Shown one piece after another: positions 1-21,910 of a stretch of DNA of 21,910 nt. The position numbers and the translations under genes are program-made. The DNA is taken from the NCBI GenBank assembly GCA_026770585.1, contig MU646688.1:381344-403253 (forward strand), read 5' to 3'. The stretch is from Baffinella frigidus. Taxonomy: Eukaryota > Cryptophyceae > Cryptomonadales > Baffinellaceae. How positions within the stretch are numbered: position 1 is the first letter of the stretch; every line of letters starts with the position of its first letter. Under the pieces are notes generated by a model that was given only the letters and a program-made list of their open reading frames with translations, searched no databases and was not told where the DNA came from.

Positions 1-99
1 CGACCCCCCCCCTGCTCGAGGACGGGCGCGGAGTCCCGCAGAGGAGCGCCCACCCCCCCCACCAGCGGCTGAGGGGGAGGGGGGCGGGGTCTTGCGGAC
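1..99. other. GC-rich edge sequence, no assigned feature
   Basis: Runs of C and G. It may be intron or the continuation of gene A. Nothing can be assigned with confidence. Confidence 0.3.
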
Positions 100-162
100 G
101 TTCCATCGCCCGTTGAGCACCTCCGAGTGTGGTACGACGCTCTTCGGCCCCACCCCTCCCGC
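100..162 (-). CDS. Candidate gene A exon near the window edge
   Basis: 21 codons in phase 0, acceptor CTGCAG, possible donor GTCCGC. It reads AGGVGPKSVVPHSEVLNGRW. A similar stretch at about 288-349 keeps PTSVVPHSEVLNGR but then meets a stop, so one of the two is an active exon and the other a decayed copy. The donor is uncertain, and the frame may run on towards the window edge. Confidence 0.42.
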
Positions 163-3100
163 CTGCAGGGGGCGTGGAGGCCTTCTGAATAAAATATGAT
201 TAAATGCCCCCTCCCCGTGGTGCTCATCAAAACTTGCTCGGTGCAAAGACATTGTGTTATCAAGGCCTCCACGCCAATTGGTAGGCTTTGACTATCGCCC
301 GTTGAGGACTTCCGAGTGCGGGACAACGCTCGTCGGCCCCACCCTCATCCGGCAACAAGTATTTTTATTTTAAAATCTGCATGAAAATTACTACACAAAT
401 GCTTCGGGACGTGACCTATGCGTAGTAATTTTCCTTGCCAGGTTTTTAAAAGAAAAATACTTGTTCCCGGATTAACCCCCTCCGCCTGCGCCCGGCATCC
501 ACGCTTCACGGTGTGGGCTTCACGCTTTACAATGTGGGGTGCACCGTTTAGAGTGTGGGGTGCAGGGGTTACCGGCGAGGATGCATCGCGCGCCCCCCTC
601 GACACAGACATCGACGCCATCCGCGCGGGAGAAGTCTCCTTCTCGAGGCGTGCTGCGTCGCGCGACGCGAGATCGTTCCATCCCCAGGATGTTGCCGCTG
701 CCGGCTCGCCAGACTCCTCCACCTGCATCCGGGGTAGTGCATACCGCGGCGGTGACTATTGGTGGGCCGTACGCGAGACGCGAGGGCGTTCCAACCCCAG
801 GTTGCTGCCTTCGGTTGTCAGCCTCTACCTGCATCGGTTTTAATTTAAAACTTTCTGGCAATGAAATTTACTACGCATAACAAGTTTTACTGGAAATATT
901 AAAGCATTCCTGTAGTAATTTTCGTGGAATCCAAAAGGTTTAAATTAAAACAGTTTTCATATGCGATCAGCAGCCTCCTCCTCCTCCTGCATCCGCGCCC
1001 GCCCGATCACCCAACCGACCACCCGATCAGAATAACACTGTGCCGAAGCGGCCCGTCTGAAGGCCATAGACGTTTGGAGGCTTAAGAGAGCAATGGAGAG
1101 GAATCTCGAGGCTTAAGAGTAATTTCGAGGAAGAAGAAGCATCCGAGTAGTTGATGCCAAGGCGTTGACTATTGGTGGGTCGAAGGGGGCTCTTCGGCGC
1201 GCGTTCTTGGCCGGGGAGCGCAAACCCACCAACCACTTAGCAGCCACCGGGGGTTTCACGGATACAGCCCATCTAAACTATTTTTACTAGAATCTTATCC
1301 ATTGCCCTGGAACCTAACCGGAATTTCACCTTGAGATCAAGGTAAAAAGGTCATCAGTCTTTGCTAAGTGGACCGCCTCCCTGGGACACACCACACCGTC
1401 TGGATTTCACTGAAATGGCAGGTGACACTCGGCACGATAGGATTCAACAATATCACGCTCCCGGGATAATGTACGGTTACAGAGCAACCTTGGTAATGAC
1501 CGACTCCCGGTAGGTGACTGCCTATAGCCTTTTCTGCGCGCGTGGGAGGCCGCCTCCTAGAGATTATCGTCTCCAACACAATTGATGGGTTATGCAATTA
1601 ATAGATTTTCGTCTCCAGAAAAAATAACCCAATAAATCATAGTTCGTCTCCAACGCATGCATTATAATCTAAGACGCAATCACCTTGCCGAGGCTGGTGT
1701 CGAGTCGGTTGCGCGAGATGTGCAGCGGCGCCGGGGCCTCGATGTCCCGTCCGAACAACCCCGCCTTTTTCTCCGCGCCGCTGCGACAGGGGTGCCGCGG
1801 GGTCAGGGTCTCGTCTCGGATTGGGGGTGGGGATTCTCTTCCAGTCAACCCTGCCTTGCACGCCACGCCACTGCGAGGAGGTTGAGTGGTTTAGGGTTTA
1901 GGGTTTAGGGTTTAGGGTTTAGGGTTTAGGGTTTAGGGTTTAGGGTTTAGGGTTTAGGGTTTAGGGTTTAGGGTTTGGGGTTTAGGGTTTAGGGTTTAGG
2001 GTTTAGGGTTTAGGGTTTAGGGTTTAGGGTTTAGGGTTTGGGGCCGTGTTGGTGTTAAGGTCTCTCCCCGTCCAGGATTTCGACTGACGCTCAGGGTTCA
2101 GGGGGTGGACTGACGTGTTGGCCTCCCGCTCTCGCGCGCGCGCCCGGACGAGCGCGTCGCCCACTTCGGCAGCGGTCGGGCGCTGGTGGGGGGGGCGTGC
2201 CAGCAGCCTCGGCAGACACCCTGCCACCTGCACACACATACCACCTTTGTATTTAGGGGTGAAGATGCGGATATATCAATTCAAAATGGATATGTGGGAT
2301 GTTAGTGATACGAGGAGCGTGATGTTTGGGCGACAGAGGCAGAGGCAGGTGTCGGGCGGTGGTGTGTGAGGGGGGGCAGGAGCCCCCTGCATGCTCTCCC
2401 AACACTTGAGCGTATTACGCTGATACTACGCTGAATCGCCCAACAATTCAGCGTGCGGGTGGACGACCTAGTTCCGGTGTCAAGCTAATCACTGCATTCC
2501 GTTGGGTGGTACGGTATCCAATTCGGTAGGATGGTACGGACTGCCGGAATCAGGGTGGCGCCGGAAACAGGTGAGCCGCCCAGATTACGCTGAATGCCAA
2601 TGCAGCGTATGTTTTAAAAGATCAGCAGGAAAGGATTTAGGGCGTATGGTTTCGGGGTGAGGGTTCAAGAGGAGGGGGATTGGGGTTGAGCCAAACCCCT
2701 CCACCCACTCTCCAACCCCAAAAGGTGAGCGAAGACGCTCCAGCGTGGCCCCACGCGCTTCGGTCCTCGACGTTTTTCAACAACCAATTTCACACAGATA
2801 AAATTGACGCCAGCCTTGTACATACCAAGGTCAACTGTAAAATGGTTTGTGTTGGTTGTCACGGCAAGTGGCATGACCTCAAATGCCCCGCACCCCCACC
2901 CCACGCGCAACCCTAACCCCTACACCCTACACCCTACACCCTACACCCTAAAGGACACGGTGAAACCTTATTCGAGAGTTGGAAGGTATTCGAGAGTGGG
3001 AAGCTCTGCGAGAGTGGCTGGAGGGGACGTGACCTCGCACGCGCCGCAGCCCCACCCCGCTGTCTTTTCAGCTGCACCTGGTGTAGGGTTTAGGGATCAG

Positions 3101-6100
3101 GGTTTAGGGTTTAGGGTTTAGGGTTTAGGGTTTAGGGTTTAGGGTTCAGGGTTGAGGGTTGAGGGTTTAGGGTTTCTTGGCAGCACCTCCACAGCAGCAG
3201 CTCCGCACCAGCCTCCCCGCCACGGATCGCGCCGCCTGCGTTTGCGGTTTAGGGTTTAGGGTACGGCACCCTAACCCTTAGCCCTTGAGGTTGGAGAGTG
3301 GGTGGAGGGCGCCTGTCCGCGATGGGGGGGGTCAGATCACCTAGCTCTGTCTCAGGCTATTTGGACCAAGCAATTTTGTGCGCCCGGGCTCGTTTCCGCT
3401 CCAAAATTGACGGATCTTTACCGCACACCCAACATGTCAACTGAAGGATATTCGGTGAACCCGAGTGAAGCAGAGCTATGAACAGGGCACCTGGGCTCCC
3501 TCAAGTCCTAGCGGAACAGCCCTCCTCTTTAGACAAACCCCAATTCCGGCGTCAGCACCCCCCCCCCGGTCCGGGCAGGGTGGAGGGTGGAGGGAATAAG
3601 GGTGTTCAAGGTTTAGGGATGTTTAGGGTTCAGGGGCGGGGTGGAGGCCTTCTTAATAAAACGTCTTTGTACCGAGCAATGTTTATTGAGTACCACGAAA
3701 ATGAATGGACCGATCTGTGAAGCCCACCACCAGCAACCCGTAGCAGCTTTTACCGGGTCCGTGCAAGATCCGGGAATGAAATTCTTTTTTGGATTTATTC
3801 TTAGGACCCTACAGTAGGAAACCCTAGGGACCTCGAATTGCTGACGAGAGATACCGATGAGATCCCATCAGCTTAGCTGAAAATTACTACAGTACCCGGC
3901 CCGGTCATAAGGTGTTACGGATTGCTGGTGGCAGTGTGTGGTGTTCGACGTACCGTGGTGACGCGCGAGGCCGCGGCGAGCGACGCAGGCATCGGGTCGC
4001 TCGCGGGTGCGAGCACCACCACTGCGGTCAGGCCGTGCGCGTCACCATCCTCGGTCATTCAGGGTGCTGCGTTCACGCTTCGGGGAACACCGCGGACCAT
4101 TTCAGCTGCAAATATTTCCAGGTTCAGGGTGCAGGGTACAGGGTGCAGGGTGCAGGGTGCAGGGTGCAGGGTGCAGGGTGCAGGGTTCAGGGTGTAGGGT
4201 TCAGGGTTCAGGGTGCAGGGTTCAGGGTTCAGGGTTCAGGGTTCAGGGTTCAGAGTTCATGGTTCAGGGTTCAGGGTTCAAGGTTCAGAGTTCATGGTTC
4301 AGGGGTTCAGGGTTCAAGGTTCAGAGTTCATGGCTCAGGGTTCAGGGTTCAAGGTTCAGGGTTTAGGGTTCAGGGTTCAGGGCTTAGGGTTCAGGGTTCA
4401 GGGTTCAGGCTTTAGAGTGTATGGTTGAGGGTTGAGGGTGTATGTTTCAGGGTTTAGAGTGTGGTTCAGAGTTGAGAGTGTATGGATCAGGGCTGAGGGT
4501 GTATGGTGCAGGGTTGGGAGTGTATGGTTCAGGGCTTACAAGTGTATGGTTCAGGGTTTAGAGTGTATGGTCGAGGGTTTAGAGGGTATAGTTTCGGGAG
4601 TAGGGTTGACACCAAGGACGATGCCAGCGGCAAACATGTCCGCAGGCCCCGACGGTCCTCTGTAATCCCTTTCTTTCCCAGGGCCACGCGAGCCACTGGC
4701 ATTGGAGCCGTTTTCGTTGGAGCCGTTATTCACGCGCTCGGGCGCGAGGTACGAGTCGGGCTGCGCGGGGGACGTGACTTTTAGGGGACGTGACATTTAG
4801 GATGGGCGAGCGGGCATCGGATGCCCGTGATTGTGGGGCGTCAGATGCCCGGCTTGCTACGGGACGTGTTGTGAGAGTGCACACCCTGCGAGGTCCACTC
4901 ATGACCACACAAGGTCATCGCAGGGTGTCCACTCCGATGCGGGGCCAGCACGCACCACACCACCAACCCTCATGGGAGGAGCAAATCGTCGATTTTGGAT
5001 TTCGAATTGCACCCTACGGAGGGGTGGGATCCCACCCCTCTGTAAGGTGAAACTCGATTATTAAAATCGACGATTTGCTCCACCCGTGAGGGTTGGTGGC
5101 AGATGGAGTGGTCGAGAGGCGGGTCTTCCAGCTACGTCCCACTCTATTTGGTCTCACCAATTCGGTGAGCCCAGGATCTTCCCCCCTCCAAAGTTGACAG
5201 ATTCGTCCAACACACCCAGGCTCGGCAGAGGTACAGCTGTTCACCGGAGGAGCGTGGGACGGCGCCGCCAGTGTATTCTCTCTCTCTCTCACACACACAC
5301 ACACACTCACTCACTCGCTCTCTCTCGCTCTCTCTCTCTCTCTCTCGCTCTCGCTCTCTCTCTCTCTCGCTCTCTCTCGCTCTCTCTCTCTCTTGCTCTC
5401 TCTCTCGCTCTCGCTCTCTCTCTCTCTCGCGCGCGCTCTCTTTCTCACCGGAGGAGCGTGGGAAGGCGGCGCAAGATCGGCCAGGCCCACGTCCGAGAGC
5501 TTTGCCTGTCGCGCGGGTGCTTCAGGGTTTAGGGTTTAGGTTTAGGGTTTAGGGTTTAGAGGTTAGGTTTTAGGGTCTAGAGGTTAGGGTTTAGGGTTTA
5601 GGGTTTAGGGTTTAGGGTTTAGGGTTTAGGGTTAAGGGTTAAGGGTTAAGGGTTTAGGGTTTAGGGTTTAGGGTTTAGGGTGTAGAAAGCGTCTGACTGA
5701 GTCGGGTGAAGCGTGTTTGACGAGAGGGCTACCTGGAGACGCGCCGTCTTTTCGGGAGAGGAGGGCATTGCCAGGTTGCCGGACTATCCTTAAGTTGCCA
5801 GGATGGGCGTGCGGCACAAACCCGTCAACTTTGGAGCGAAAAAGAGCCCGGGCCAACCAAACCGGTGTGCCGAAATAGACTGGGACCTGGAGGGGCGACG
5901 CGGCGTCTTTTCGGGAGAGGAGAATGTTGGCCGGGCGCACGTTCCCGTGCGCGAGCAGCATTTCCGTGTGCAGGAAGTGCAGCCCCTGTCATCACACGCG
6001 CCCTTCATCACATGAAACCGGCAAGCACCATCATCGAGGAAGCCTCGGGGGGGAATATGACTATCTGGCCACTCGAGGGATACGCCCGGGTGATGTGACG

Positions 6101-6747: not shown

Positions 6748-7450
6748 TGCTCAATCCAGGTTGCCGAAAATAATGACACTGCTGCAAAGAATGTCGCAGG
6801 GTCTCCTTTTGAGCGCTTGGCCTGTTGTGCGAGGCAAAGATTGGGAACAGAGTAACGGAGTTACAAACGTTCGACAGCCATGCCGAGGCGCCCACGTCAC
6901 CCCTGCCTCAATACCGAAAATACAGAGGAACCTGGGCCCGCCTCGGGACGGTGGATGCATTTATGTGTTCATTATCGGGTATATTTTATTTTCCCATTCA
7001 AATTCAGTCGAAATCCGTGTGAACCGAGCAAATTTCGTGCTCGTAACCTGTGCCAGGATAATCGGAATTTTTAACGCCCGGGTGGACCGGTGGGGGAGGA
7101 GTTCTCTTCTCGCCACTCATCCACTCATCCCCGCATCGTCGCTTCACATCGCAGGGTCGCTTCCAGTTCTCGCCCTTCGGTCCCCCCCCCCCTCCCCTCC
7201 CTTCCCCCCACTCTCCACCTGTCTCCACCACCCTCCTGACTTTCGCCGCTGGAGAAGCCGCCGCCCCCCTGACGCCCCCTGCCGCCACCCCATGCGACCA
7301 TCCGCGGGGTTTCCCGCTGCCACGCTGCCCGCACGAGCCCTGCGCTGCAGCTGCTGCAACTCTGCAGCTGATCGGATCGTGCCACCGCAGTGTATTCGCG
7401 GGGGTGGACGGGGGTGACCCCGCCCTGCCGCTTCCCGCTCCACGGCCGCG
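6748..7450. promoter_or_regulatory. Divergent intergenic region between genes A and B
   Basis: About 700 bp between the chosen start codons of two head-to-head genes. It contains an AT-rich patch at about 6976-6990 (GGTATATTTTATTTTC) and a GC- and pyrimidine-rich stretch from about 7180. It carries no telomere-like heptads, unlike both gene bodies. It is a likely bidirectional promoter with two 5' untranslated regions, an inference from layout. A further 5' exon of gene A could lie here. Confidence 0.4.
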
Positions 7451-7718
7451 ATGGCGGGCCGCCATGGCGTGAGGCTAGCGGCGGTCGCCCTGTGCCTGCT
7501 GGCCTCCGCCGCACGCGCCGACCCGCCCCCGACGCCCGAAGCCGGGCACTTCCGCGGAGGGTCCATTGCATGGACCTCGCTCGGCGGGAACGAGGTGGAG
7601 TTTGAGATCCTCTCGTCGTGGCGGCGGTCACACAATGGGCACTACCTCCATGGATCCCCAGCGATGGGGCAGATCTTCATCGGCGATGAGGCGAGCGTTC
7701 CCCGCACGGATCTTGCCT
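7451..7718 (+). CDS. Gene B exon 1: signal peptide and start of beta-rich domain
   Basis: 89 codons plus one base; the start GCCGCGATGG has a good context (purine at -3, G at +4). Residues 1-23 form a classic signal peptide: basic n-region (GRHGVR), hydrophobic LAAVALCLLASAA and an ARA cleavage site before DPPP. The mature part has HFRGGSIAWTSLGGN and VEFEILSSWRRS. The frame meets TAG at 7721, but a donor GTTAGG at 7719 leaves one base that joins the next exon as Trp-Gly-Asp-Asp (WGDD), the expected family motif; this decided the exon end. Confidence 0.82.
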
Positions 7719-13700: not shown

Positions 13701-14308
13701 GACCCCCCAGGTGCGGTGGCATGCAAGGCTTTCAGCTCTCACCTGCTACCCCCGGCCGCCGCGGATGCCTCAGAAATGCGGGGGCTGCGCCCTGTACCCT
13801 CAACCGTGAACCCTAAACCCTGAACCCTGAACTCTAAACCATGAATCCTAAACCCTGAACTCTAAACCCTGAACCCTGAGCCCTGAGCCCTGAACCATGA
13901 ACCATGAGCCCTGAGCCCTGAACCCTGAACCTTGAATCCTGAGCCATGAGCCCTGAACCCCAAACGCCTAATCCCATACCCGAACTTGCAGGGAAAGTGT
14001 CGGGGGTGACGCTGAGCAGCCAAGGGTCGGGGTACCTGTACGGACCGAGCTTCGCATCTGGCGCCTGCCCCCGCGCTGCGTTTGCCCCTGTCCTGCTCCA
14101 GACCGAGGTCGAACTCCACTCTCGTTGAGGCTTCAGGCTTCAGGGTTGTTGACAAACGCGCTTACATTCGTTGGACTTGAGGGATTCAGATAGCTTTTGG
14201 CATTCTGCAGACCGAGGTGTGGCGCTTCTTTTTCTTTGTTGCTCTCGAGCCTAAGAATGGGTTGTCCGGAATGAGTGAGTGATCCCAACGTTGCATATCT
14301 TGCGTCTT

Positions 14309-14341
<33 letters not shown>

Positions 14342-17300
14342 CTCGAACCCAGAATCGAGTGATCTGAAGTAGGTTTTGTATCAGGCCAGTACCCCAGTCC
14401 TGGCAGTTCACCGTGCCAGGTTCTCTTTTCAGAACGTGTTGACGCAAACGCTGCTCATTTCAGGACGTGTTAACGCAAACAGTACTGAATATCAGGACGT
14501 GCGGACGCGCCCGGTACTAATGTCAGGACGTGTGAACGCGCCCGGTACTAATGTTGGGACGTGTGAACGCGTGGCAGTTGAACGTGGTGGTGCACGTGCA
14601 AGATCGGCACTACTGCTACGAGACCACCGACCCGACAATCCCCAAGCCCGAGAAACCTTGCAACCCCGATAACCCCCTGGTACCCCCCCGCGCCAAGATC
14701 TGGGTTTCTCGTTGAGGGTTGAGGGATGAGCCTGGAGATTGTAGCACACGCCTCAGCCGTGTCGATCCCAACACGCCTCAGCCGTGTCGATCCCAACACG
14801 CCTCAGCCGTGTCGATCCCAACACGCCTCAGCCGTGTCGATCCCACACGCCTCAGCCGTGCACGCCTCAGCCGTGTCGATCCCAAGCACACGCCTCAGCC
14901 GTGTCGATCCCACACGCCTCAGCCGTGTCGATCCCACACGCCTCAGCCGTGTCGATCCCAATAACCCCTTGTCCTGTCCCCGCGCCACCTCCCTGTTCTG
15001 TCTCACTCTATTTCGGCGATTTGGTCTATTTGGGCGAAGCGGTCTGGTGAGCCCGGGCTGTTTCCCTTTGCTGTAAAGTTGACGGGGTTGTACGACGCAG
15101 CCAGCATGTCAACTTAGGAATAGTATGTCTGTCCATCTACTGACTTATTTCGTCAATCTACTAAATCATCCCGTCCATCTACTCACGCATCCCGTCCGTG
15201 CAGATGGTCTACACGGGCGCAGTGCTCCCGCAGATCCGTCTGTCCATCTATTGACCAAATTCCTGTCTTTATTGGCTACATGTTCATGTTTGTCCATATG
15301 TTGACTAAATATTGCGTCCCCGGCAAATGAGATGGTAGACACGGACGCAGATCTCCCGCAGGCGCACCTCGCCTCCTTCCCGGGGATCGCGTCCATCTAT
15401 TATCATTCCTTTCCCGGAAACAGTCCGTGTACGCCGGCACTGTCAGCAGTCGTGTTATGCGATCAACAAACGGCGCCAACTCCACATCCGTATGTCAATC
15501 TAGTTACTCATTCCGTCCATCTACTAACGCATCCCATCCCTGGCAGATCGTCTACACGGGCGCAGTGCTCCCACAGATGCACCTGACCTCCTTCCCGGGG
15601 ATCGGGGCGGGATGGGATCCTGTTCGGAAGGCCGCGACGCCGGTCGTGACTGGCTTCCTGCCGAGTGTCACGTCCTTCGCGTCCGGCGCCGCTGGCCAGG
15701 TTGCGAACATCCATCGCCACGCACTCCAATCGGGGCAGTGAAGCCTATCATATTCACTACGGTAGGCCGTAGTGCCCCTTCGAGAAACCTGGGGCTAGGG
15801 GCCCTGCGGGCTACCGTAGGCAATACCGGTTTGGAAGGACGTGACTCCGGCCGTGACTTCTTGCTTCGTGGTGAGTGTCACGTCCTTCGCGCGGGCCAGG
15901 TTCTAGCCAGGATTGTCATTGACATGCATTCCCTTTGCTTCTCGACTCCCGTTCAGGACCCCAGTCGAGTTGACTTGTCGTGTCCACGCCGAAAGTTGTC
16001 GGATTTGTACCGCACACCAGGGGTATCAATTTCCGGTCTCGTCAAAATGAGGAGCCCAGATTAACCTGAGTCAGGCAGAGCTAGGACGCCTCGAGGCTGT
16101 GCCTTTGTTCAAATGGTCATGCACGCGCGTCCAGTTTGTACCGCGCCAGAATTGTTATTACATATTGTATATTATGTATTATATTATATATATTAGAAGT
16201 GTGACGTCACACTGCACCGTGCAGACAAATGTTGACGCTGCAGCATCAACAGGCGGCGCCCCGGGGGGGTCTTAACCCCTCAACCCCTAACCCCCTCAAC
16301 CCTTGAACCCCTAGACCCCTGAACCCCTGAACACGAAACGCGACAGGCGGCGGCGGGGCGTACCCGTTCTGGTCCATTCAGGATGTGCCGTTCACGTGTT
16401 ATATATTATAATTGTCACGTGCACGTGTGCACACATGTGAACCCTTGTTCAGCACCATTCACCCTTAACCCCTAACCCCGTGAACCCCAACAGGCGGCAG
16501 CAGGGCACGTAGCGGCGTACGCAGGGTATCCGGTCAAAGTCACTTTCTCTGCGGAAGTCAACTGGTGCCAGGTCGCAAACCGTGCTCCCGAAACCTGAAA
16601 CCCTAAACCCCCACTCCTAAACACTAAACCCTAACCCCCCGAAACCCTTCGCACGATCGAAGCTGCATAGGACTCCCTAAACCCTAAATCCTAAACCCAA
16701 AACTCGAAACCCGAAACCGAAACCCCCGTGAAGTACCTTGAAGAACGTGAACCCGAAACCCGAAAGGCGAAAGGCGAAAGGCGAAAGACAGTGCACTCTC
16801 GCGGCGCAAAAAGCGGCATGTCGCATGCGCACGCTTCGGCCTCGTCCTGTCTTCGGCCTCGTCCTGTCGCGGCAGAGTCATCCTTGCTCTTTTGCATCAC
16901 CCTCACCAGGCACCCGACACAACGCTCACACCGGCGCAGACGGCAAACCCGTGTTGGTGTCAGATAAATTCATCTCAGAAGATAACAGAATCAGTTCCTT
17001 TTCAATAGGAGATGGCATAGGAGAAATTAGATAGGGCATAGTAAATTTAATTAGGCCTCCTAATTAAATGACAAGGCTAATTAGGGAACTGATTCAGTTA
17101 TCTTTCGAGATGAAAATGAGGCGGGCCCGTCCGTCCGTCCCAGCCTCCTCACTCCCGACGCGGGCCCGTACGCTTCTAACCCCAAACCCCTGACAGGCAG
17201 CCGACACGACGCTGACGGCGGCGAAGATGGCAGACGCGCGATGCCGGGTGAGAGAGGCAGGAGTGTCGTTGAGCTACGGCCCAATGCCGCCGAATGCCCA

Positions 17301-20300
17301 CTACTCCTTCGTGCAGGTGCCCTACCTCTTGTCTCGGTCTATTTCGGCTCGCCACTTCGACTATTCCCAATTTGGCATGCCGGGTTCGCGGTACAAAGCC
17401 GTCAACTTTGGCACGTGAAAGAGCCCCGGCGCACCAAATGAGTGAGCCCGGATAGACACGCGGTGTCTGGTGAAAGAGGCGGGGGTGTCGTTGAGCTACG
17501 GCCCGATGCCCCCTTCTGCGCACTACTCTTGTGTCCAGGGGCCCTAGCTCTATCTCCCAACGCTGATTTGCGCGAAGCGATTTGGTGAGCCCGGGATGTT
17601 TTCCGCGCCGAAGTTGACGGGGTTGTTCCGGGAACCCGGCATGTCAAGTTGAGAGTAGTGTTCTCTTCTCCGGTGGTGTGTGGCCAAAAAGGCCTCTGAT
17701 CGGGGTGTCGATCACCTATGCCTGATGCCGCTCACGCCGCGCTACTCGTTTTTTCGGGTTCCATTTCTTCTCTAATCGTTCAGTGACACACAGTCAGTAC
17801 TTTACGTTTGATGAATTCACGATGCATGCAGCGAGAGAGAGCGCGCGAGAGAGAGAGAGAGAGAGACAGCGAGAGTGTGTGTGTGGCAGCGTGTGTGTGT
17901 GTGTGTCACAGAGAGAGAGAGAGAGAGAGACCTTCGTTGATGACGCCATGGCCACATGCCTCATGTTTTCGGTTGACAATTGTAGGGAGTCGGAAAGCGT
18001 CAGCAATCATCTGAAGCGGTGCGTGTTTCGGACACGACAGCCGGACGCGATCACGGACCTGCTCATCACGTACGACAACCCGTTTTCAAAAACACCTTCC
18101 CGGACACTGAACTCAATAAACGGCGCCACCACACCCCATCCATCCATCTACTGTCTCATCCCGTCCCGTCCTGTCCATTTACTGGCTCCTTCCGTCTCGC
18201 CCCGTCCATCTACTGACAGATCGCGTCGCGTGGCGTCCATCTACTGACAGATCGCGTGTGGCAGCCGGACGCGATCACGGACCTGCTGATCACGTACGAC
18301 AATCCGTTTGCCTCCCACCGCCCTGGCCAAGAGCACGCCGTTGACCGTAAACCCTAAACCCTAAACCTTAAACCTAAACCCTATACCCTAAACCCTAACC
18401 CTAAACCCTAAACCCTAACCCTAAACCCTAAACCCTAAACCCTAAACCAGGAATGGCGAGGGATTTCGCGAACCACCCCGGCGCGGAGCAGGTCTCGAAA
18501 CCCGAAAGCAGCAACGGTGTACATTGGTTTTTGCATTTGGCAATATTGCGCGCGCGGTTTCGCAAACCGGCCCGGCGCAGCGCGGGTGCCCGTTGACGTT
18601 GTTTTTTGCATTTTCACGCGGTTGCAACCCGAAACAGCTTTTTCCGGGTCTGGGACCTTCGGATATCATTCCATAGGACCCTACGGTAGGACATCCCTAG
18701 GACCCTACGATAGGACATCCATAGGAACCTACGGCAGGACATCCCTAAGCACCTAAAGTTTTCGGGGGGGGGGGGGTAGATGGCTGATACACTTGAAAGT
18801 GTATAGTCTGGGATAAATTCCGACTTTGGAAAAGACGTTTCAAGCCGCTTGAGGCAGTAGATGGTTGGCAATACACCATATTGTGCGAACGGTACTGATT
18901 TTGAGGGCGTGTGGGGCAGGCGGCGCAAATGGGCTACGAGAGGGTGGACGCTAACCTCAACTCTGGGAACGGGGGGGCTTCCGTGTACCTCTGGTTCAAG
19001 AGATTCGACGCGGCTTCCAACAACACGGACCAGGTGTGTTCTAGCTCAAAAAAGGCATTCAGCCATGAATGCCTTTCTAGCTCTGCCTCACGCGGGTTGA
19101 CCGGCTATTCTCAAGTTGCCATGCTGGGTGTGCGGTACACATCCGTCAACTTTACAGCGGAAAAGAGCCTAGCTCCGTCTCAAGTCTGTGTGGGCTCACC
19201 ATTTTGGTGCGCCCGGGCGTTTTGGAGCGGAAATGTTGACGGATTTGTACCCCAAACCCAGCATGTCAAGTTGAGGATAGTCGGTCGACCCGACTGCAAC
19301 TGCTCGGAAGCGCGGGCGTGTGTCTTGCGCGTGTGGTGTGTGTGTGTGTGTGTCGGTGTATCAGCAAGTGGCTTCGTGTGCGTCGTTGTGTGAGCACTCT
19401 CACTCACTCACATACTCTCTCACTTGCTCTCTCGCTCCCCCCCAAGGAGGCGACCACACACATCAACGTCTCTTCGACCGGCCCCGAGGAGCACCTTCTC
19501 TCACTCTCTCTCTCACACTCACTCTCTCTCTCACTCGCACACACTCACTCACTCTCTCACACTCACTTCACTCACTCGCACTCATTCACTCTCACACTCA
19601 CACTCACACTCTCACACTCACACACTCACACATTCACGCTCTCACACACACACACACCCTCACACTCACACTCACTCCCTATCACACTCTCACACTCTCA
19701 CACTCCCACACTCTCACACTCTCACACTCGCACACTCACACACACAAAGAGTAAGTGACGCTCTCACACACACACGCTCTCAGGCGGCGATCACGCACAT
19801 CAACGTCTCAACGACCGGGCCCGAGGAGGAGACGCTCGCGTCGCGGGGCTTTCAAAAGCTCCCAGGAAACATCAACGAGCAGGTCCGACACCCTCAAACC
19901 ACACCTATCCGCGGTCGTGACACCCTGAAAACGCGCAGTTTCCAGGATTCAATACGCTATAACTACCTGTTGCGTCCGGTTGGTACCGGGGCACACCCTG
20001 AAACCGCACCTATCCGCGGGCGTGACATCCTGAAACCACGCCTTTTCGGGAACAACACGGCTGCCAGAAGCTCCCAGGAAACAGCAACGAGTAGGTTCGG
20101 GAAAACACGCGTTTCCGCGGTCGTGAAACACTGAAACCGCCGTTTCGGGAGCGACACGTTTTTCGGGAGATGCAAGTTTGGGGGGGAGCCACCAGTCGTT
20201 TCAAAAGGAATGTTTTTCACGTTTGCACGTTGAGACTAGAAACAATGTATGTGACATGTGACATGTGACATGTGACATGTGACATGTGACTCTTCGCTAC

Positions 20301-21910
20301 GCGATGTGTCCTTGGTGCACGTTGAGACTCAATCTGTCGAATCTGTCTTGTGGAATGTGTCCCCAGCCAACAGCTTCTTCGCCAAATCACTTTTTAAAAT
20401 GGTGCTGTGGGTCTCCCTAAACCCCATATCCTAAACCCTACACCCTGAACACTGGGCAGGCCGGGGGAAACGAAGTGTACATCTGGTACAAGAAAGCCTC
20501 TGGCATCGTCTCGTTTGAGGAGTCGCGTCCGCTACAGGCACCCTCTCCTCCTCCTAAACCCGCAGAACCCGCAGGACCCTTAACCCTAAACCCCAAACCC
20601 CAAACCCTAAACCTCAACCCTAAACACTCAACACTAAAGTCTCCTCCTCATTATCCGCTCTCAAGCTGGGAGAGAACAATTTAAATTTCTGTAATGACTC
20701 TCACGTGAAAATGGCTCAAGCCAGGTCCAGATTGTGGACCTGACTGGCGTATTGTGTTCCGAGTTGGCTCAACAGCTGTCGAGAGTGTTCACCTCGGTGA
20801 GTCGCAATGTGAGGGAGCCTGCCCGGTTCAGTCAACCGCCGTGCTCGGGACTCTTCGCCTGGAAACCCTAAACCCTAAATCTTAACCCCCAAACCACATA
20901 ATTTTTTCAACGTTACACACATATTGCAAAGACGAGTTGCGACTTCTAAAATGAAACCAATTGACATTAAACAAATAATCTCCATGTCCAGGCGGGGTTT
21001 GAGCTAGCGGTGACAAACATCTGGGTGCTTTCCGCGCGCTGACATGTGGGTGCTTTCCATCTGGGTGCTGAAAGCACCCAGAAGGCCTCTCCGACGGAGA
21101 GGCTCGAACCCCGGAACCTTGAACCTCAACCCCGAAACCCTGAACCGTATACCCCGAAACCCTGAACCGTATACCCTTCACTATGCAGGCGGGGTTCGAG
21201 GTAGCGGTGACAAACATCTCGGTGGTTTCATCGACAGCGGCGGTCGTCCCAGTGGGAGCTGGGTGCAACGCTTCGACCACCAACTGCTCCGACATCAACC
21301 CCTACGCCCTGGTCAAACCCGAAACACGAAACCTGAGCCCATCAACACGAAACACGAGACACGAGACACGCAACCGACAAGTGCTCCGACATCAACCCAT
21401 ACGAAGATTTGGTCTCCGCCCGTGATCCCAAACACGAAACAAAAAACACGAAACAAAAAAACGAAAAACGAATCCGAAACCTGGACCCGGAATTTGAAAC
21501 CCGAAACCCTAACCCCGAAAACCGAAAACCGAAACCTTAACCCCGAAAACCGAACACCGAAAACTGAAACCTGAAATCCTCAACGCTGAAACAGGGTCGA
21601 CAGGGGCTGGGCAACCTCTGGACGAAAGTCGACGGAAACCTCAACGCCGGCCTCCAGGTTACGCGCCCCCCGTATCATACGTGCATATATTATACGTGTA
21701 TGTACCTATACGTGTATGTACGTGTATGTACGTATATTTACGTATATGTACGTATATGTACGTATAGTACGTATAGTACGCACTTCGTATAGTACACCCG
21801 GGTTTCGGGTTTCAGGTTCGGAAACCTCAACGCCGGCCTGTAGGTTACGAGCCCCTCCCCGTGCCACTTGAACCCCCCCCGCGCCACTTGCAAACTAAGC
21901 AAGGTTATGA
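7451..21910 (+). CDS. Gene B: large secreted multidomain protein, 21 candidate exons, 3' end outside window
   Basis: Seen: exons 7451-7718, 8621-8681, 9099-9258, 9936-10007, (10364-10423), 10836-10949, 11584-11641, 12468-12535, 12916-12966, 13188-13278, 13992-14107, 14578-14679, 15547-15699, 16494-16571, 17197-17316, 18265-18339, 18920-19033, 19784-19882, 20460-20507, 21189-21311 and 21604-21657. All introns are GT-AG, phases agree at every join, and the sum is about 695 codons with no in-frame stop. Order: signal peptide 1-23; a beta-rich domain to about 187 with WGDDS and FTGCCR; a middle region with GxGxGY-type beta repeats (about 285-370); further segments to about 524; then MABP-like segments. 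Known: the WGDG/FTGCCR module occurs in large extracellular proteins of algae and other protists, and MABP beta-prisms bind membranes. Inference: a cell-surface or secreted protein. Coding DNA is about 15% of the span. Confidence 0.78.
8056..8226. mobile_element. Foldback element in intron 1
   Basis: Ends TCTGGTAGGACTTGGC (about 8056) and GCCAAGTCCTACCAGA (about 8210) are perfect inverses. Further inverted similarity (GCCGACTT / AAGTCGGC) extends inward. It is AT-richer than its surroundings. Confidence 0.7.
8396..8440. repeat. Near-perfect hairpin
   Basis: GGTGGTCACGTTCCTCCCCG pairs with CGGGGAGTAACGTGATCACC, 18 of 20 positions, with a loop of five bases (AAATT). Confidence 0.8.
8512..8870 (-). 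repeat. Telomere-type C-rich repeats around exon 2
   Basis: Degenerate CCCTAAA, CCCTGAA and CCCTCAA units on both sides of exon 2, interrupted only by the exon. Confidence 0.88.
8621..8681 (+). CDS. Gene B exon 2: WGDDS and DYSEADDW segment
   Basis: 61 nt, acceptor ACGCAG, donor GTCACC. It reads (W)GDDSFAYLVVKVTDYSEADD(W). Both border Trp codons are split by introns, and both are restored by the chosen sites, which is strong support. The first base pair completes the codon left by exon 1, and the last two bases join the G of exon 3. Confidence 0.83.
8871..8898 (+). mobile_element. Possible end fragment of the dispersed element
   Basis: Begins CTAGCTCTGTCGCAG, like the end of the 3341 copy, but the body is absent. 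Confidence 0.35.
9099..9258 (+). CDS. Gene B exon 3: FTGCCR segment
   Basis: One base plus 53 codons, acceptor ATGCAG, donor GTGAGT. It contains FSGVYRVNHSYSNPNQGW and WEAAFTGCCRLPNLINAA. The FTGCCR motif with paired Cys is diagnostic of the module as I remember it from algal and protist extracellular proteins. A decayed copy of the 3' end sits at about 9492-9537. Confidence 0.87.
9263..9335 (+). repeat. Purine microsatellite (GA / GGGA)
   Basis: GAGAGAGA then GGGAGGGAGG directly after the exon 3 donor. Confidence 0.92.
9409..9472 (+). repeat. 15-bp minisatellite
   Basis: Four units of GTGGGTGCGCCTGGG, almost perfect. Confidence 0.93.
9492..9537 (+). repeat. Echo of the exon 3 end
   Basis: GCGGACGTTTGTCGAACCTC and GAACGCCGCAGTGCG parallel GCTGCCGTTTGCCCAACCTT and CAACGCCGCGGTGAG of the true exon and donor. 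Confidence 0.6.
9560..9935 (+). repeat. G-rich heptads and echoes before exon 4
   Basis: GGTTTAGGG-type units in the orientation opposite to the rest of gene B. AACAGGGGGAGGCGTG at 9812-9827 copies the exon 4 start with its acceptor (AACAGGGAGAGGCGTG), and AACGGGAACAG recurs at 9703 and 9893. Confidence 0.65.
9936..10007 (+). CDS. Gene B exon 4: end of beta-rich domain
   Basis: 24 codons, phase 0, acceptor AAACAG, donor GTAAAC. GEAWSLEAPIDLVQISGMPS follows FTGCCR...NAA, as expected for this module (WSLEA..DL). The donor merges straight into CCCTAAACCC repeats. Confidence 0.8.
10008..10320 (-). repeat. C-rich telomere-type repeats after exon 4
   Basis: CCCTAAA, CCCTAAG and CCCTGAC units, then six AACCATA units at about 10145-10190. 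Confidence 0.9.
10364..10423 (+). CDS. Gene B candidate exon 5
   Basis: 20 codons in phase 0, acceptor GGCAG, donor GTGCTC; reads DMMALARTALPTPVCPIPGK. It fits the phase of both neighbours but shows no motif. It could be skipped without breaking the frame. Confidence 0.4.
10590..10815 (-). repeat. C-rich repeats including a CCCTAA hexamer tract
   Basis: Heptads, then from about 10757 to 10812 an almost pure hexamer CCCTAA run. This differs from the heptamer elsewhere and equals the TTAGGG type. Confidence 0.93.
10836..10949 (+). CDS. Gene B exon 6
   Basis: 38 codons in phase 0, acceptor GGCAG, donor GTCATC. It contains GGCAKLHFSGIKCGEQ (two Cys) and EVGEIGTLLASKAEP. No named domain. Pieces of both its ends recur in the flanking introns. 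Confidence 0.75.
10960..11580 (+). other. Intron 6 with echoes of exons 6 and 7
   Basis: CATCAACC/CATAAACC repeats; GGCCGAGCCGGTGATCACCC (about 11111) and CTCGCGTCCAAGGCGGAGCC (about 11225) copy the exon 6 end and donor; GGGCTGGCTGGAGGTGTACC (about 11346) copies the exon 7 start. Confidence 0.6.
11362..11421 (+). repeat. 20-bp tandem repeat x3
   Basis: Three units of ACCGAGACGGCACGGGGCAG, one with a single change. The unit continues an echo of exon 7 (its 'YPDGTVQ' part). Confidence 0.92.
11584..11641 (+). CDS. Gene B exon 7
   Basis: 19 codons plus one base, acceptor AACAG, donor GTACCA; reads VVNGLEVYPDGTVQMACQS. The overhanging G completes Gly with the first two bases of exon 8. Confidence 0.78.
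11642..12467 (+). other. Gene B intron 7
   Basis: About 825 bp with no gene. It holds scattered CCCCTAAC repeats, a 28-bp direct repeat at 12278-12333 and two echoes of the exon 8 start: ATGGCAAGGTGTCTCACCGC (about 12120) and ATGACAGGGTGCCCC (about 12408), each with an AG at the acceptor position. Confidence 0.6.
12278..12333 (+). repeat. 28-bp perfect direct repeat x2
   Basis: Two adjacent copies beginning CAGCTGATGCAGAAAGGC. Confidence 0.92.
12468..12535 (+). CDS. Gene B exon 8
   Basis: Two bases plus 22 codons, acceptor GGCAG, donor GTCCCA. CLAAGLYSIGIKLGFGTVKS leads into the first Gly-rich beta repeat. Two decayed copies of its start lie upstream (12117-12160 and 12403-12421). Confidence 0.8.
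12826..13175 (-). repeat. C-rich telomere-type repeats around exon 9
   Basis: CCCTAAA arrays on both sides of the 51-bp exon 9. The second is nearly perfect over about 13097-13155. Confidence 0.92.
12916..12966 (+). CDS. Gene B exon 9
   Basis: 17 codons, phase 0, acceptor GGCAG, donor GTGTAC; reads VTNDGNGTCAVGTWPLT. Joined to exon 8 it gives SIQVTNDGNGT, resembling 'V.VtngGsGY' beta repeats. It is too short to appear as an open frame of note. Confidence 0.72.
13188..13278 (+). CDS. Gene B exon 10
   Basis: 30 codons plus one base, acceptor CCTTAG, donor GTGCGT. It begins VTCPGAPAFKALCLAAGGGH and ends SYTVAAN. The overhanging G joins exon 11 as NGKVSGVTL, which argues against inclusion of the intervening block at 13711-13793. 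Confidence 0.78.
13390..13424 (+). repeat. Echo of the exon 10 end
   Basis: CACTGTCGGCGCCAACGGTG matches CACTGTCGCCGCCAACGGTG at the exon 10 donor. Confidence 0.72.
13795..13975 (-). repeat. C-rich degenerate heptads before exon 11
   Basis: CCCTGAA and CCATGAG units run to within about 16 bases of the exon 11 acceptor. Confidence 0.9.
13992..14107 (+). CDS. Gene B exon 11: second GxGY beta repeat
   Basis: Two bases plus 38 codons, acceptor TTGCAG, donor GTCGAA. KVSGVTLSSQGSGYLYGPSF is a clear 'V.gV.vt..GsGY..aP' repeat, and GACPRAAFAPVLLQTE follows. These repeats are common in extracellular beta-rich proteins. Confidence 0.83.
14304..14338 (+). repeat. (TTC)n microsatellite
   Basis: About eleven TTC units in intron 11. 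Confidence 0.93.
14430..14577 (+). repeat. ~32-bp tandem repeat ending at the exon 12 acceptor
   Basis: Five units around GGACGTGTGAACGCG; two carry CCCGGTACTAATGT. The last unit runs into GTGGCAG, the acceptor of exon 12. Confidence 0.85.
14578..14679 (+). CDS. Gene B exon 12
   Basis: 34 codons in phase 0, acceptor GGCAG, donor GTACCC. LNVVVHVQDRHYCYE, then a Pro-rich tract ending PCNPDNPL with two Cys. The frame would stop at 14714 if unspliced. Its acceptor lies at the end of a tandem repeat whose last unit supplies the splice site. Confidence 0.78.
14745..14961 (+). repeat. 25-bp minisatellite x9
   Basis: Nine copies of CACGCCTCAGCCGTG, eight followed by TCGATCCCA. One unit is cut to 15 bp. 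No unique spacers, so it is not a CRISPR array. Confidence 0.95.
14990..15125 (+). mobile_element. Dispersed ~130-bp element copy
   Basis: CTCTATTTCGGCGATTTGG, GGTGAGCCCGGGCTGTTTCC, AAAGTTGACGGGGTTGTAC, CAGCATGTCAACTTAGGAAT in the standard order. Confidence 0.75.
15125..15546 (+). repeat. CCATCTACTGAC repeats and echoes of exon 13
   Basis: Repeated GTCCATCTACTNAC motifs. GTCTACACGGGCGCAGTGCT with a CAG acceptor at about 15206 and ACACGGACGCAGATCTCCCG at about 15337 copy the exon 13 start; both reach stops or lack a donor. Confidence 0.75.
15547..15699 (+). CDS. Gene B exon 13
   Basis: 51 codons in phase 0, acceptor GGCAG, donor GTTGCG. It starts IVYTGAVLPQMHLTSFPGIG and ends VTSFASGAAGQ. 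It is the only one of several copies of this block that is open and has both splice sites; copies at 15200-15235, 15330-15400 and 15831-15912 are broken. Confidence 0.8.
15831..15912 (+). repeat. Echo of the exon 13 end
   Basis: GAGTGTCACGTCCTTCGCG is identical to the exon, followed by GGGCCAGGTTCT in place of GGCCAGGTTGCG. Confidence 0.75.
15950..16084 (+). mobile_element. Dispersed ~130-bp element copy, diverged
   Basis: AAAGTTGTCGGATTTGTACC, CACACCAGGGGTATCAA and the end GAGTCAGGCAGAGCTAGG. Confidence 0.6.
16198..16213. other. 16-bp perfect palindrome with TGACGTCA core
   Basis: AGTGTGACGTCACACT reads the same on both strands and contains the bZIP/CRE octamer. It is next to an AT-rich TATA-like tract (16150-16195) in an intron. 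No function is shown. Confidence 0.6.
16239..16493 (+). repeat. Intron 13 end: echoes of exon 14 with C-rich repeats
   Basis: CAACAGGCGGCGCC (about 16250) and GACAGGCGGCGGCGGGGCGT (about 16342) copy the exon 14 start CAACAGGCGGCAGCAGGGCA. CCCTAACCCC-type repeats at 16270-16340 and 16462-16490. Confidence 0.62.
16494..16571 (+). CDS. Gene B exon 14
   Basis: 26 codons in phase 0, acceptor AACAG, donor GTCGCA; includes GHVAAYAGYPVKVTFSAEVN and ends WCQ. Joined to exon 15 it gives NWCQAADTTLT. Confidence 0.8.
16588..16720 (-). repeat. C-rich heptad-like repeats in intron 14
   Basis: AAACCCTAAACCC and CCGAAACC units. Confidence 0.82.
16907..16946 (+). repeat. Echo of the exon 15 start
   Basis: ACCAGGCACCCGACACAACG copies GACAGGCAGCCGACACGACG, acceptor included. 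Confidence 0.68.
16970..17113. mobile_element. MITE-like element, 144 bp, 29-bp inverted ends
   Basis: TCATCTCAGAAGATAACAGA with ATCAGTTCC at the left pairs with GGAACTGATTCAGTTATC and CGAGATGA at the right, about 26 of 29 positions. The core is AT-rich with AATTAGG/CCTAATT. It separates an echo of exon 15 from the true exon. Confidence 0.82.
17197..17316 (+). CDS. Gene B exon 15
   Basis: 40 codons in phase 0, acceptor GACAG, donor GTGCCC. AADTTLTAAKMADARCR, then VREAGVSLSYGPMPPNAHYS, ending FVQ. An internal GTGAGA at 17248 is another possible donor. Two diverged copies of the second half lie downstream, each after a dispersed element. Confidence 0.8.
17325..17450 (-). mobile_element. Dispersed ~130-bp element, minus orientation
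   Basis: GGCATGCCGGGTTCGCGGTA, CGTCAACTTTGGCACGTGAA and AGAGCCCCGGCGCACCAAAT are the inverse of the standard body. It starts within about ten bases of the exon 15 donor. Confidence 0.72.
17455..17543 (+). repeat. Echo 1 of the exon 15 second half
   Basis: GTGTCGTTGAGCTACGGCCC is identical to the exon, then CGATGCCCCCTTCTGCGCAC and TCCAGGGGCC at the old donor. Confidence 0.82.
17543..17665 (+). mobile_element. Dispersed ~130-bp element copy
   Basis: CCTAGCTCTATCTCCC, GGTGAGCCCGGGATGTTTTC, GAAGTTGACGGGGTTGTTCC, GGCATGTCAAGTTGAG. It lies immediately after echo 1. Confidence 0.78.
17678..17765 (+). repeat. Echo 2 of the exon 15 second half
   Basis: GGGGTGTCGATCACCTATGC, CTGATGCCGCTCACGCCGCG and CTACTCGTTTTTTCGGGT follow the exon order with more changes. 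Confidence 0.6.
17830..17935 (+). repeat. (GA)n and (GT)n microsatellites
   Basis: GAGAGAGAGA, GTGTGTGTGT and again GAGAGAGAGA within 100 bp. Confidence 0.93.
18027..18105 (+). repeat. Echo of exon 16
   Basis: CGACAGCCGGACGCGATCAC and GATCACGTACGACAACC-like sequence copy the start of exon 16 with an AG; the copy diverges after about 55 bases. Confidence 0.82.
18130..18262 (+). repeat. CCATCTACTGAC repeats before exon 16
   Basis: GTCCATCTACTGACAGATCG occurs twice, with looser copies upstream. The same CCATCTACT motif precedes exon 13. Confidence 0.85.
18265..18339 (+). CDS. Gene B exon 16: start of MABP-like segment
   Basis: 25 codons, acceptor GGCAG. PDAITDLLITYDNPF is the opening strand of an MABP-type repeat ('ITdI.v...'), then ASHRPGQEHA. 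I chose donor GTTGAC at 18340 because the next exon needs phase 0. The stronger-looking GTAAAC at 18347 would break the phase. Confidence 0.72.
18346..18449 (-). repeat. CCCTAAA array after exon 16
   Basis: Heptads with a few TATACCC and CCCTAA variants begin seven bases after the chosen donor. Confidence 0.93.
18624..18752 (+). repeat. ~24-bp palindromic tandem repeat, shared with 3738-3832
   Basis: AGGACCCTACGGTAGGACAT recurs three to four times; each unit holds CCTAC-G-GTAGG. The left flank matches the gene A copy. Confidence 0.75.
18920..19033 (+). CDS. Gene B exon 17: MABP-like repeat core
   Basis: 38 codons in phase 0, acceptor GGCAG, donor GTGTGT. MGYERVDANLNSGNGG and ASVYLWFKRF match the hallmark 'GY..id.dLN.G.GG..vYLwyk' of MABP beta-prism repeats. 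This is the clearest domain signal in the protein. Confidence 0.85.
19051..19076. repeat. Perfect hairpin
   Basis: AAAGGCATTC and GAATGCCTTT with a six-base loop, between two CTAGCTC motifs just after exon 17. Confidence 0.8.
19077..19172 (-). mobile_element. Dispersed element, minus orientation
   Basis: CTAGCTCTGCCTCACGCGGG, GGCTATTCTCAAGTTGCCAT, CGTCAACTTTACAGCGGAAA. Directly followed by a forward copy. Confidence 0.75.
19172..19292 (+). mobile_element. Dispersed element, plus orientation
   Basis: CTAGCTCCGTCTCAAG, GTGCGCCCGGGCGTTTTGGA, AATGTTGACGGATTTGTACC, CAGCATGTCAAGTTGAGGAT. Forms a head-to-head pair with the copy before it. Confidence 0.78.
19390..19780 (+). repeat. CACTCT / CACA microsatellite
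   Basis: Long CA/CT-rich tract. Within it, GGCGACCACACACATCAACG at about 19449 is an echo of the exon 18 start (GGCGATCACGCACATCAACG). Confidence 0.93.
19784..19882 (+). CDS. Gene B exon 18: second MABP-like repeat, first half
   Basis: 33 codons in phase 0, acceptor CTCAG, donor GTCCGA. AAITHINVSTTGPEE begins a repeat and GFQKLPGNINEQ ends it, running into AGGNEVYIWYKK of the next exon. Confidence 0.84.
19883..20459 (+). other. Gene B intron 18
   Basis: Contains ATCCGCGG-CGTGACA direct repeats (19909-20035), an echo of the exon 18 end (AGAAGCTCCCAGGAAACAGC then GAGTAGGTTC at about 20066-20097) and a TGACATG heptamer run. No gene. Confidence 0.65.
20249..20290 (+). repeat. TGACATG heptamer repeat
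   Basis: Six tandem units. Confidence 0.93.
20460..20507 (+). CDS. Gene B exon 19: second MABP-like repeat, second half
   Basis: 16 codons, acceptor GGGCAG; reads AGGNEVYIWYKKASGI. Joined to exon 18 it completes 'NINEQAGGNEVYIWYKK'. The donor is uncertain: GTCTCG at 20508 keeps phase 0, while the frame stays open to about 20684 and other GTs exist. Confidence 0.7.
20508..21188 (+). other. Gene B intron 19
   Basis: C-rich heptads at 20570-20640, 20866-20895 and 21107-21180. A short GT-AG-bounded block at 20776-20796 was not accepted as an exon. GGCGGGGTTTGAGCTAGCGG at about 20990 is an echo of the exon 20 start. Confidence 0.6.
21061..21103. repeat. Two adjacent perfect hairpins
   Basis: CTGGGTGCT-GAA-AGCACCCAG, then GCCTCTCC-GAC-GGAGAGGC, three bases apart. 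Confidence 0.82.
21189..21311 (+). CDS. Gene B exon 20: third MABP-like repeat, first half
   Basis: 41 codons in phase 0, acceptor TGCAG, donor GTCAAA. FEVAVTNISVVSSTAAVVPV resembles the opening strand of a further repeat; an insert with two Cys (GCNASTTNCSDINPYAL) follows. Decayed copies of both ends lie in the flanking introns. Confidence 0.8.
21312..21603 (+). repeat. CGAAAC / CCCGAAAC repeats in intron 20
   Basis: Degenerate ACACGAAAC and CCGAAACC units. TGCTCCGACATCAACCCATA at about 21382 is an echo of the exon 20 end. Confidence 0.8.
21604..21657 (+). CDS. Gene B exon 21: third MABP-like repeat, second half
   Basis: 18 codons in phase 0, acceptor GACAG, donor GTTACG. GLGNLWTKVDGNLNAGLQ carries the 'kvDgNLNaG' hallmark. 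The next exon, expected to encode the 'YLwy' strand, is beyond the window. Confidence 0.8.
21675..21796 (+). repeat. TACGTATATG repeat
   Basis: Alternating TACGTATA and TACGTGTATG units, rich in the palindrome TACGTA. Confidence 0.92.
21816..21850 (+). repeat. Echo of the exon 21 end
   Basis: CGGAAACCTCAACGCCGGCC is identical to the exon, then TGTAGGTTACG replaces TCCAGGTTACG at the donor. Confidence 0.85.

Follow-up and report, generated by a model that had tools for sequence, protein, structure and literature searches.

Introns of five genes were shown to carry direct copies of the ends of their flanking exons, each copy lying on the side of the copied splice site (referred to below as echoes). 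At a strict cut (SW ≥28, with the terminal 60 nt of the exon aligned to the adjacent intron), a copy was present in the adjacent same-side intron at 27/136 exon ends, against 0/136 for the reverse complement and 4/2014 for non-adjacent introns. Echoes had been proposed in a first-pass annotation of the window (the whole 21,910-nucleotide stretch of DNA analyzed here); they were confirmed as real, the excess of exon-border similarity being recovered both by self-alignment and against shuffles, and they were local, direct, and on the expected side not only in gene B of the window but also in four further genes (CCT1, CCT4, CCT6, and HSP70). Their favored origin, held at a probability of about 45%, is local template switching combined with selection against working extra acceptors, plain tandem duplication supplying part of the copies.

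Gene models and samples

The window formed the terminal 21.9 kb of its contig (403 kb), in a genome of 382 Mb and 1364 contigs. A first spliced model of gene B led to three relatives, one of which was the MMETSP transcript protein P0001 (1014 residues, 728 of them held by the contig); the 23-exon model (Table 1) had a translation identical to P0001 throughout this portion, and its exon numbers differ from the first-pass ones because the transcript added three short exons and removed one. The introns of gene B were GT-AG in 20/22 cases and GC-AG in 2/22. PF01476, which we take to be LysM, was listed for P0001; gene B also had a sub-threshold Pfam match to SIBA-E_N (integrin beta-like), and its exons 19 to 22 resembled, by eye only, an MABP-like beta-prism. 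Gene A, divergent and on the minus strand, matched a kinase weakly (E 1.2e-5); its exons were placed by eye, and a transcript search for it gave no match.

The sample comprised five genes on five contigs: gene B, three CCT genes (CCT1 and the partial CCT4 and CCT6), and one HSP70 gene, the latter four annotated with a spliced aligner written for the purpose. The CCT genes were taken from ten matches on four contigs, three of which were used and the fourth left out, and the HSP70 gene was one of 17 matches, some of them with long unbroken frames. Two spurious aligned pieces, the 18th of CCT1 and a 17-nt one of CCT6, were left out; the CCT6 exon at 4851-4904, with an uncertain border, was kept in the exon-end counts and left out of the acceptor-context scoring.

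Table 1. Gene B exons, echoes, and MITE-like copies in the window (many of the pairs from self-BLAST of the TRF-masked window)
Feature	Position	Strand	Real counterpart	Identity and remarks
Gene B, E1-E23, as far as the contig reaches	7451-21657	+		Identical to P0001 over 728/728 aa
Gene B E1	7451-7690	+		
Gene B E2	7898-7937	+		
Gene B E3	8621-8681	+		
Gene B E4	9099-9258	+		
Gene B E5	9936-10007	+		
Gene B E6	10364-10423	+		
Gene B E7	10836-10949	+		
Gene B E8	11584-11641	+		
Gene B E9	12468-12535	+		
Gene B E10	12916-12966	+		
Gene B E11	13188-13278	+		
Gene B E12	13992-14107	+		
Gene B E13	14578-14679	+		
Gene B E14	15547-15699	+		
Gene B E15	16494-16571	+		
Gene B E16	17197-17316	+		
Gene B E17	18265-18346	+		
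Gene B E18	18451-18491	+		
Gene B E19	18920-19033	+		
Gene B E20	19784-19882	+		
Gene B E21	20460-20537	+		
Gene B E22	21189-21311	+		
Gene B E23	21595-21657	+		
E5 acceptor-side echo	9793-9827	+	9912-9946	83% over 35 nt, E 0.003; spans ~24 nt of intron
E7 donor-side echo	11111-11140	+	10940-10969	87%; crosses border
E7 second donor-side echo	11226-11246	+		19/21; GT next
E8 echo	11350-11382	+	Exon positions 11-43	28/33; without AG
E11 donor-side echo	13390-13425	+	13258-13295	84%
E14 acceptor-side echo	15204-15235	+		Exon 30/32; leftward intron also similar, score 68
E14 second acceptor-side echo	15330-15389	+	15545-15604	82% over 60 nt
E14 donor-side echo	15826-15891	+	15619-15681	80%, 3-nt gap
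E16 acceptor-side echo	16907-16951	+	17194-17238	80%; begins at CAG
E16 donor-side echo	17454-17551	+	17232-17329	81% over 98 nt; 13 nt of intron included
E17 acceptor-side echo	18038-18085	+	18262-18309	96% over 48 nt; begins at CAG
E20 acceptor-side echo	19445-19491	+	19782-19828	87% over 47 nt; begins at AG
E20 donor-side echo	20059-20140	+	19847-19934	76% over 88 nt
E22 acceptor-side echo	20989-21032	+	21186-21229	91% over 44 nt; begins at CAG
E22 exon-end echo	21378-21403	+	21281-21306	92% over 26 nt; ends 5 nt short of border
E23 donor-side echo	21819-21852	+	21633-21666	91% over 34 nt; enters intron
Gene A HGN exon donor-side echo	5735-5763	-	5894-5922	93% over 29 nt; model by eye
Gene A DVG exon donor-side echo	5243-5271	-	5447-5475	90% over 29 nt; model by eye
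Gene A region pair	659-696		772-809	84%
MITE-like family copy	3338-3481			
MITE-like family copy	5130-5218			
MITE-like family copy	5774-5886			
MITE-like family copy	6141-6287			
MITE-like family copy	15046-15124			
MITE-like family copy	17358-17457			
MITE-like family copy	17543-17659			
MITE-like family copy	19077-19296			

Frequency, side, and orientation of echoes

Gene B, CCT1, CCT4, and CCT6 together had strict echoes at 12/50 acceptor ends and 13/50 donor ends (same side 25/100; reverse complement 0/100; non-adjacent introns 4/1436), and HSP70 had them at 2/36 exon ends (non-adjacent introns 0/578; reverse complement 0/36). Echo density was thus not uniform, HSP70 being clearly poorer than gene B or CCT6. 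The strict echoes of gene B lay at 13/44 ends of 9/23 exons, the E18 donor being borderline (score 28); the reverse complement of the same intron gave 0/44 and the other-side intron 3/42, all three at short exons counted already. Addition of E23 (next to an open intron) and E5 (E=0.003 in self-BLAST, not significant in the 60-nt exon-end test) gave 11/23 exons. At a lenient cut (a score reached by 0/60 dinucleotide shuffles), exons 2, 4, 7, 8, 9, 11, 12, 14, 16, 17, 18, 20, and 22 were included, and the total with E5 and E23 was 15/23; the first-pass statement that most exons have echoes accordingly holds at the lenient cut and fails at the strict one. Echoes described earlier at the HGN and DVG exons of gene A were recovered by self-BLAST; of another placed at 573-722, a nearby pair was found (gene A region pair in Table 1), while 1684-1780 yielded no self-BLAST pair at E ≤0.01. 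The splice-site switching that had been suggested was not seen in the one same-species transcript protein, which uses none of the gene B echoes.

Self-pairs less than 700 nt apart in the four genes numbered 44 direct (30 including exon) and 7 inverted (0 including exon), exon-containing pairs thus being direct in 30/30 cases. Two candidates were rejected: (i) chance as the source of echoes, ruled out by the shuffle, reverse-complement, and non-adjacent-intron controls, and (ii) inverted copies of exon ends, numbering 0/136. The distance from copy to exon was ~80-600 nt (median 215), and the 25 strict echo spacings of the four genes summed to 5521 of 26828 intron bases (21%). No strict echo was a whole exon with both splice sites. 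Among 27 spacings typed by hand (the 25 strict ones, the second E14 acceptor echo, and E23), 11 fell within 185-225 nt, near the nucleosome repeat, this interval having been picked after the data were seen.

Structure of donor-side echoes

Donor-side echoes had a mean exon-side identity of 0.90, and the 15 bases beyond GT matched at a mean of 0.45, against 0.26 at random GT sites. The 13 strict events comprised (i) six with 9-12/15 matches beyond GT, CCT1 E9 among them in a CT repeat, and (ii) seven with 3-5/15 matches, one of which reached 10 after a shift. In CCT6 donor 4 (exon copy 33/33), CCT4 donor 7, and gene B E20, similarity continued for tens of bases with gaps, and these three are tandem duplications across the border. 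The intron part of the E23 echo measured 9 nt in the self-BLAST pair and ~16 by eye. Right edges of self-pairs fell near donors 4 times against 1.6 expected (p 0.085, not significant).

Structure of acceptor-side echoes

Acceptor-side echoes had an exon-side identity of 0.89 and kept the AG in 10/12 strict events, the AG being absent in gene B E8 and CCT1 E8; the 15 bases beyond AG matched at 0.36, against 0.26 at random AG sites. The copied exon stretch measured 24-51 nt in the four genes and 20 nt in HSP70, and 1/12 strict events in the four genes (gene B E8) began well inside the exon. Left edges of direct self-pairs in the four genes lay within -8 to +3 of the first exon base in 14/44 cases, against a mean of 1.4 and a maximum of 7 in 2000 circular shifts of the exon map; 14/14 offsets were between -2 and -6, and the 14 pairs came from ten exons, CCT6 E4 accounting for four of them and gene B E14 for two. 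Junction-touching self-pairs numbered 28/44, against 11.6 expected (maximum 23). At three unannotated loci (L007, L011, and L012, with the sense strand taken from CCCTAAA), AG lay in the first 6 nt of both copies in 18/39 direct pairs and in 6/39 of the antisense control, these pairs including left-over repeats and several of them sharing one exon.

Exon and adjoining intron were both repeated in HSP70 acceptor 15 and in the first six donor echoes above. HSP70 acceptor 15, where ~50 nt of intron plus ~20 nt of exon were repeated at 89 nt and the AG of the upstream echo is now CG, is a clean tandem duplication across the acceptor border. Loss or absence of the echo AG here and in gene B E8 and CCT1 E8 fits selection against a second working acceptor. 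Most acceptor echoes were without a repeated intron part in the ungapped test. A laxer test (anchored, gapped intron-side score ranked against random intronic sites, p<0.05) found intron-side similarity above random in 13/20 pairs (5/10 acceptors and 8/10 donors), derived partly from low-complexity sequence. This laxer result is the main evidence against a clean acceptor edge: since 5/10 acceptor pairs exceeded random, part of the sharp edge may be decay. To the left of the E17 acceptor echo, the intron had no significant similarity in this anchored gapped test, and the E20 acceptor echo had low-complexity similarity farther left.

Splice contexts were scored with a 22-position matrix trained on acceptors without echoes. 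The 15 echo contexts (four contributed by a single CCT6 intron and two by gene B E14; one, that of CCT1 E4, short of the strict cut; echoes without AG left out) scored -1.4, compared to 1.5 for real acceptors with echoes and -2.2 for random intronic CAGs; they did not differ from random CAGs (p 0.27) and were lower than real acceptors of the same exons (paired p 0.0006). An echo thus resembles YAG plus an exon start set in ordinary intron, not a retired splice site; silencing selection on the echo would give identical low scores. With the splice site setting the acceptor-side edge, selection can explain the missing longer copies; it does not explain the rarity of copies starting well inside the exon.

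Divergence of echoes and plain tandem duplication

Two events were left out of the codon count, the gene B E14 donor because its alignment was gapped and the final CCT6 exon because its phase was wrong. Exon/echo mismatches at codon positions 1, 2, and 3 then numbered 21, 17, and 48 (third position 48/86), and third-position mismatches were 56/114 once these two were included; such a lean would follow from continued coding by the real exon and not by the echo. Divergence at codon positions 1 and 2 was ~7% (own arithmetic) and should estimate neutral change in the echo. At that divergence a border-spanning duplication should keep ~86% intron identity, and 36% was observed. The youngest acceptor copies had the following matches beyond AG: CCT1 E6, 3/15 (exon 27/29); gene B E17, 5/15 (43/45); CCT6 E4, 5/15 (41/44); and CCT4 E3, 8/15 (41/43). 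The gapped intron-side test, which covered the first two of these and not CCT6 E4 or CCT4 E3, gave a score above null for CCT1 E6 and not for gene B E17. Simple decay would, on these comparisons, fail as an account of the acceptor edges.

Plain tandem duplication across exon-intron borders, with sharp edges arising from faster intron decay, was the origin suggested by the first-pass annotation, and as a general account it is rather unlikely. Selection would be expected to leave just such direct, same-side geometry, several cases are clear (HSP70 acceptor 15, CCT4 donor 7, CCT6 donor 4, and the second acceptor echo of gene B E14), and the intron side exceeded random in the 13/20 gapped pairs, some of them low-complexity; however, young acceptor copies match at only 3-8/15 beyond AG despite ~7% neutral divergence per lineage, and left edges cluster at -2 to -6. 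Border-crossing duplication therefore stands for six of the 13 strict donor echoes and for HSP70 acceptor 15, but not for most acceptor echoes, which stop at the splice site.

Arrays, fillers, and insertion

Intron 3 of CCT6 contained copies of the exon 4 start at 2797, 2956, 3149, and 3401 (reverse-complemented locus), together with a fifth, shorter copy near 3307 recognized by eye; these copies had differing left contexts, and a 187-nt block was itself duplicated. This arrangement shows stacked events. Gene B E14 had two acceptor echoes plus one donor echo.

Two fillers (sequence from echo to exon), those of E17 and CCT4 E3, were searched against the readable genome. The E17 filler (177 nt) had one match, itself, while a control MITE from intron 19 had at least 41 genome matches (40 of 998 candidates scored). 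The CCT4 E3 filler held a palindromic dispersed element with at least 43 matches (40 of 60 candidates scored), whose ends were separated from both exon copies by ~20-26 nt of filler; the element may thus be a later insertion, and an introner placed at the exon does not describe it. This element, the second palindromic dispersed one after the MITE, lay in an intron of CCT4 (L036, reverse complement 4437-4566), and its other copies had ends like GCGGTGTGCAGAGAAGTTGGC.

These fillers bear on a further explanation, namely, filler insertion in which the exon start becomes duplicated as a long target site (order AG-T-filler-AG-T), through a staggered break or primed reverse transcription with a sense-strand end at the splice junction. 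Such insertion would yield direct copies and a variable-length exon start with one fixed edge and differing left sequence, in agreement with the nested contexts seen in CCT6 intron 3. It is nevertheless improbable: the echo would be expected to retain the former working acceptor, but echo contexts resemble random CAGs; the newly formed downstream acceptor would need to prevail immediately; the E17 filler is without any other genome match, unlike the control MITE; and the CCT4 element stops short of the exon copies.

Several further features of intron composition were observed. Fillers common to introns of different genes were considered and set aside, since the matches came largely from a single MITE family, with few others. 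A MITE-like family, palindromic and ~130-140 bp long, was present in nine of 50 introns of the four genes, 15-50 nt behind the donor in four of the nine. The E14 and E17 fillers (15390-15546 and 18086-18264) shared a 56-nt piece and, by eye, both had minisatellite units around GTCCATCTACTGAC. Telomere-type heptamers on the sense strand were CCCTAAA 156 versus TTTAGGG 6 in the 50 introns of the four genes, CCCTAAA 43 versus TTTAGGG 0 in HSP70 introns, and, on the + strand of the gene A region (window 1-6750), CCCTAAA 1 versus TTTAGGG 50, as a minus-strand gene predicts. Branch-point-like CT[ACG]A[AC] occurred in the last 60 nt of 43/50 introns; 50 base shuffles gave a mean of 20. In sense, TTTAG/GG would be a cryptic acceptor and CCCTAAAC resembles a branch point, so selection may keep one orientation.

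Origin of the copies

We infer that the copies originated in local replication or repair slips within the gene. Under local template switching, with working extra acceptors removed by selection, the donor side would acquire a short border-crossing tandem duplication when a slip ran backward out of the intron into the end of the upstream exon; since the first donor stays in use, the donor-side copy would be harmless and decay. On the acceptor side, the equivalent slip would place a complete second 3' splice site upstream and spoil the mRNA. Acceptor copies would survive if the extra AG was absent or lost (HSP70 exon 15, CCT1 exon 8, and gene B exon 8), and the majority of survivors would consist of YAG plus ~20-58 nt of exon in an intron context that is not a working acceptor. 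These YAG-only copies would need a forward-and-back template switch (a short copy-paste) and not plain tandem duplication. Every event would lengthen the intron, and repetition would build arrays such as that in CCT6 intron 3, where one exon start occurs in five copies.

The preference for a YAG start over starts inside the exon is a step for which template switching does not account, and three observations are not predicted by copy-paste alone: (i) the 30/30 direct orientation of exon-containing pairs, (ii) the restriction of far-side copies in gene B to short exons, and (iii) YAG as the preferred left edge. The weight of evidence is that of five genes, HSP70 being echo-poor, with four of the 14 edge pairs derived from one CCT6 exon.

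It is also unlikely, though conceivable, that the intron undergoing removal receives back copies of splice-bounded pieces (YAG and 20-58 nt from the exon start), via RNA or via a DNA end bounded by the splice junction; if this were true, splicing would feed intron growth. A specific version, in which splicing-related RNA bounded at the 3' splice site (for exon ends, the 5' one) is copied back into its own intron, has a slim probability: the tract begins at YAG and both kinds of echo lie in the intron of the copied splice site, but about half of the donor copies extend well past the splice site. mRNA as the template was rejected, since, judged by eye, the end of the intron agreed with the bases preceding the echo no less well than did the end of the previous exon, gene B E16 being an exception by one base. 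Assembly error or collapsed diverged haplotypes, which the position of gene B at the end of its contig might suggest, is very improbable given that divergence from the exon is 4-21% in most strict copies (CCT6 donor 4, 33/33, is an exception), that distances are many and different across five genes on five contigs, and that gene B exons match the transcript protein exactly.

The lengthening of introns and the source of their sequence are long-standing problems, and in these genes that source can be read directly within the intron. Should the copied tract really begin at the splice site, this one genome would allow a connection between splicing and DNA change to be tested.

Comparison with known systems

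No description of recurrent exon-end copies in introns was found in the literature, as judged by titles. Exon pieces are duplicated beside the exon in internal gene duplication, which is a source of introns, and in tandem exon duplication; in contrast, no strict echo here was a whole exon, and none was present in the gene B transcript protein. Internal gene duplication is named as an intron source in PMC9860276, which also describes introners as insertions that alter intron-exon structure and whose target duplications can supply splice sites; introners form dispersed families that insert into exons, in some cases with duplications of 3-9 bp (PMC9860276). By comparison, the acceptor copies here measured 20-51 nt, the E17 filler was single-copy in the readable genome, and neither of the two fillers searched was itself a dispersed family, the dispersed element in the CCT4 filler not reaching the exon copies.

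For new introns of Daphnia, PMC4202315 proposes staggered double-strand-break repair, internal direct repeats, and stepwise lengthening of young introns, with intron/adjacent-exon repeats of 4-12 bp. Direct repeats flanking a filler, a trait of staggered breaks, were seen here as the order echo, filler, exon in the displayed strict events; the copies here were ~20-98 nt and decayed, and four of the five genes were conserved chaperones. In potato RdRp (PMC4974935), a tandem genomic duplication crosses the intron 1/exon 2 border, and the likeness is that the exonic piece of the upstream copy ends inside an intron, with splice signals inherited; that is one case in one gene with the intron part duplicated too, whereas echoes occurred here at 27/136 exon ends and most acceptor copies were without an intron part. 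Rogers and Bendich (2025; PMC11782384) described direct repeats of 4-30 bp at or near exon-intron borders in 213/213 introns; those repeats flank the intron, whereas here one border is repeated inside the intron, the repeats are longer, and controls are near zero.
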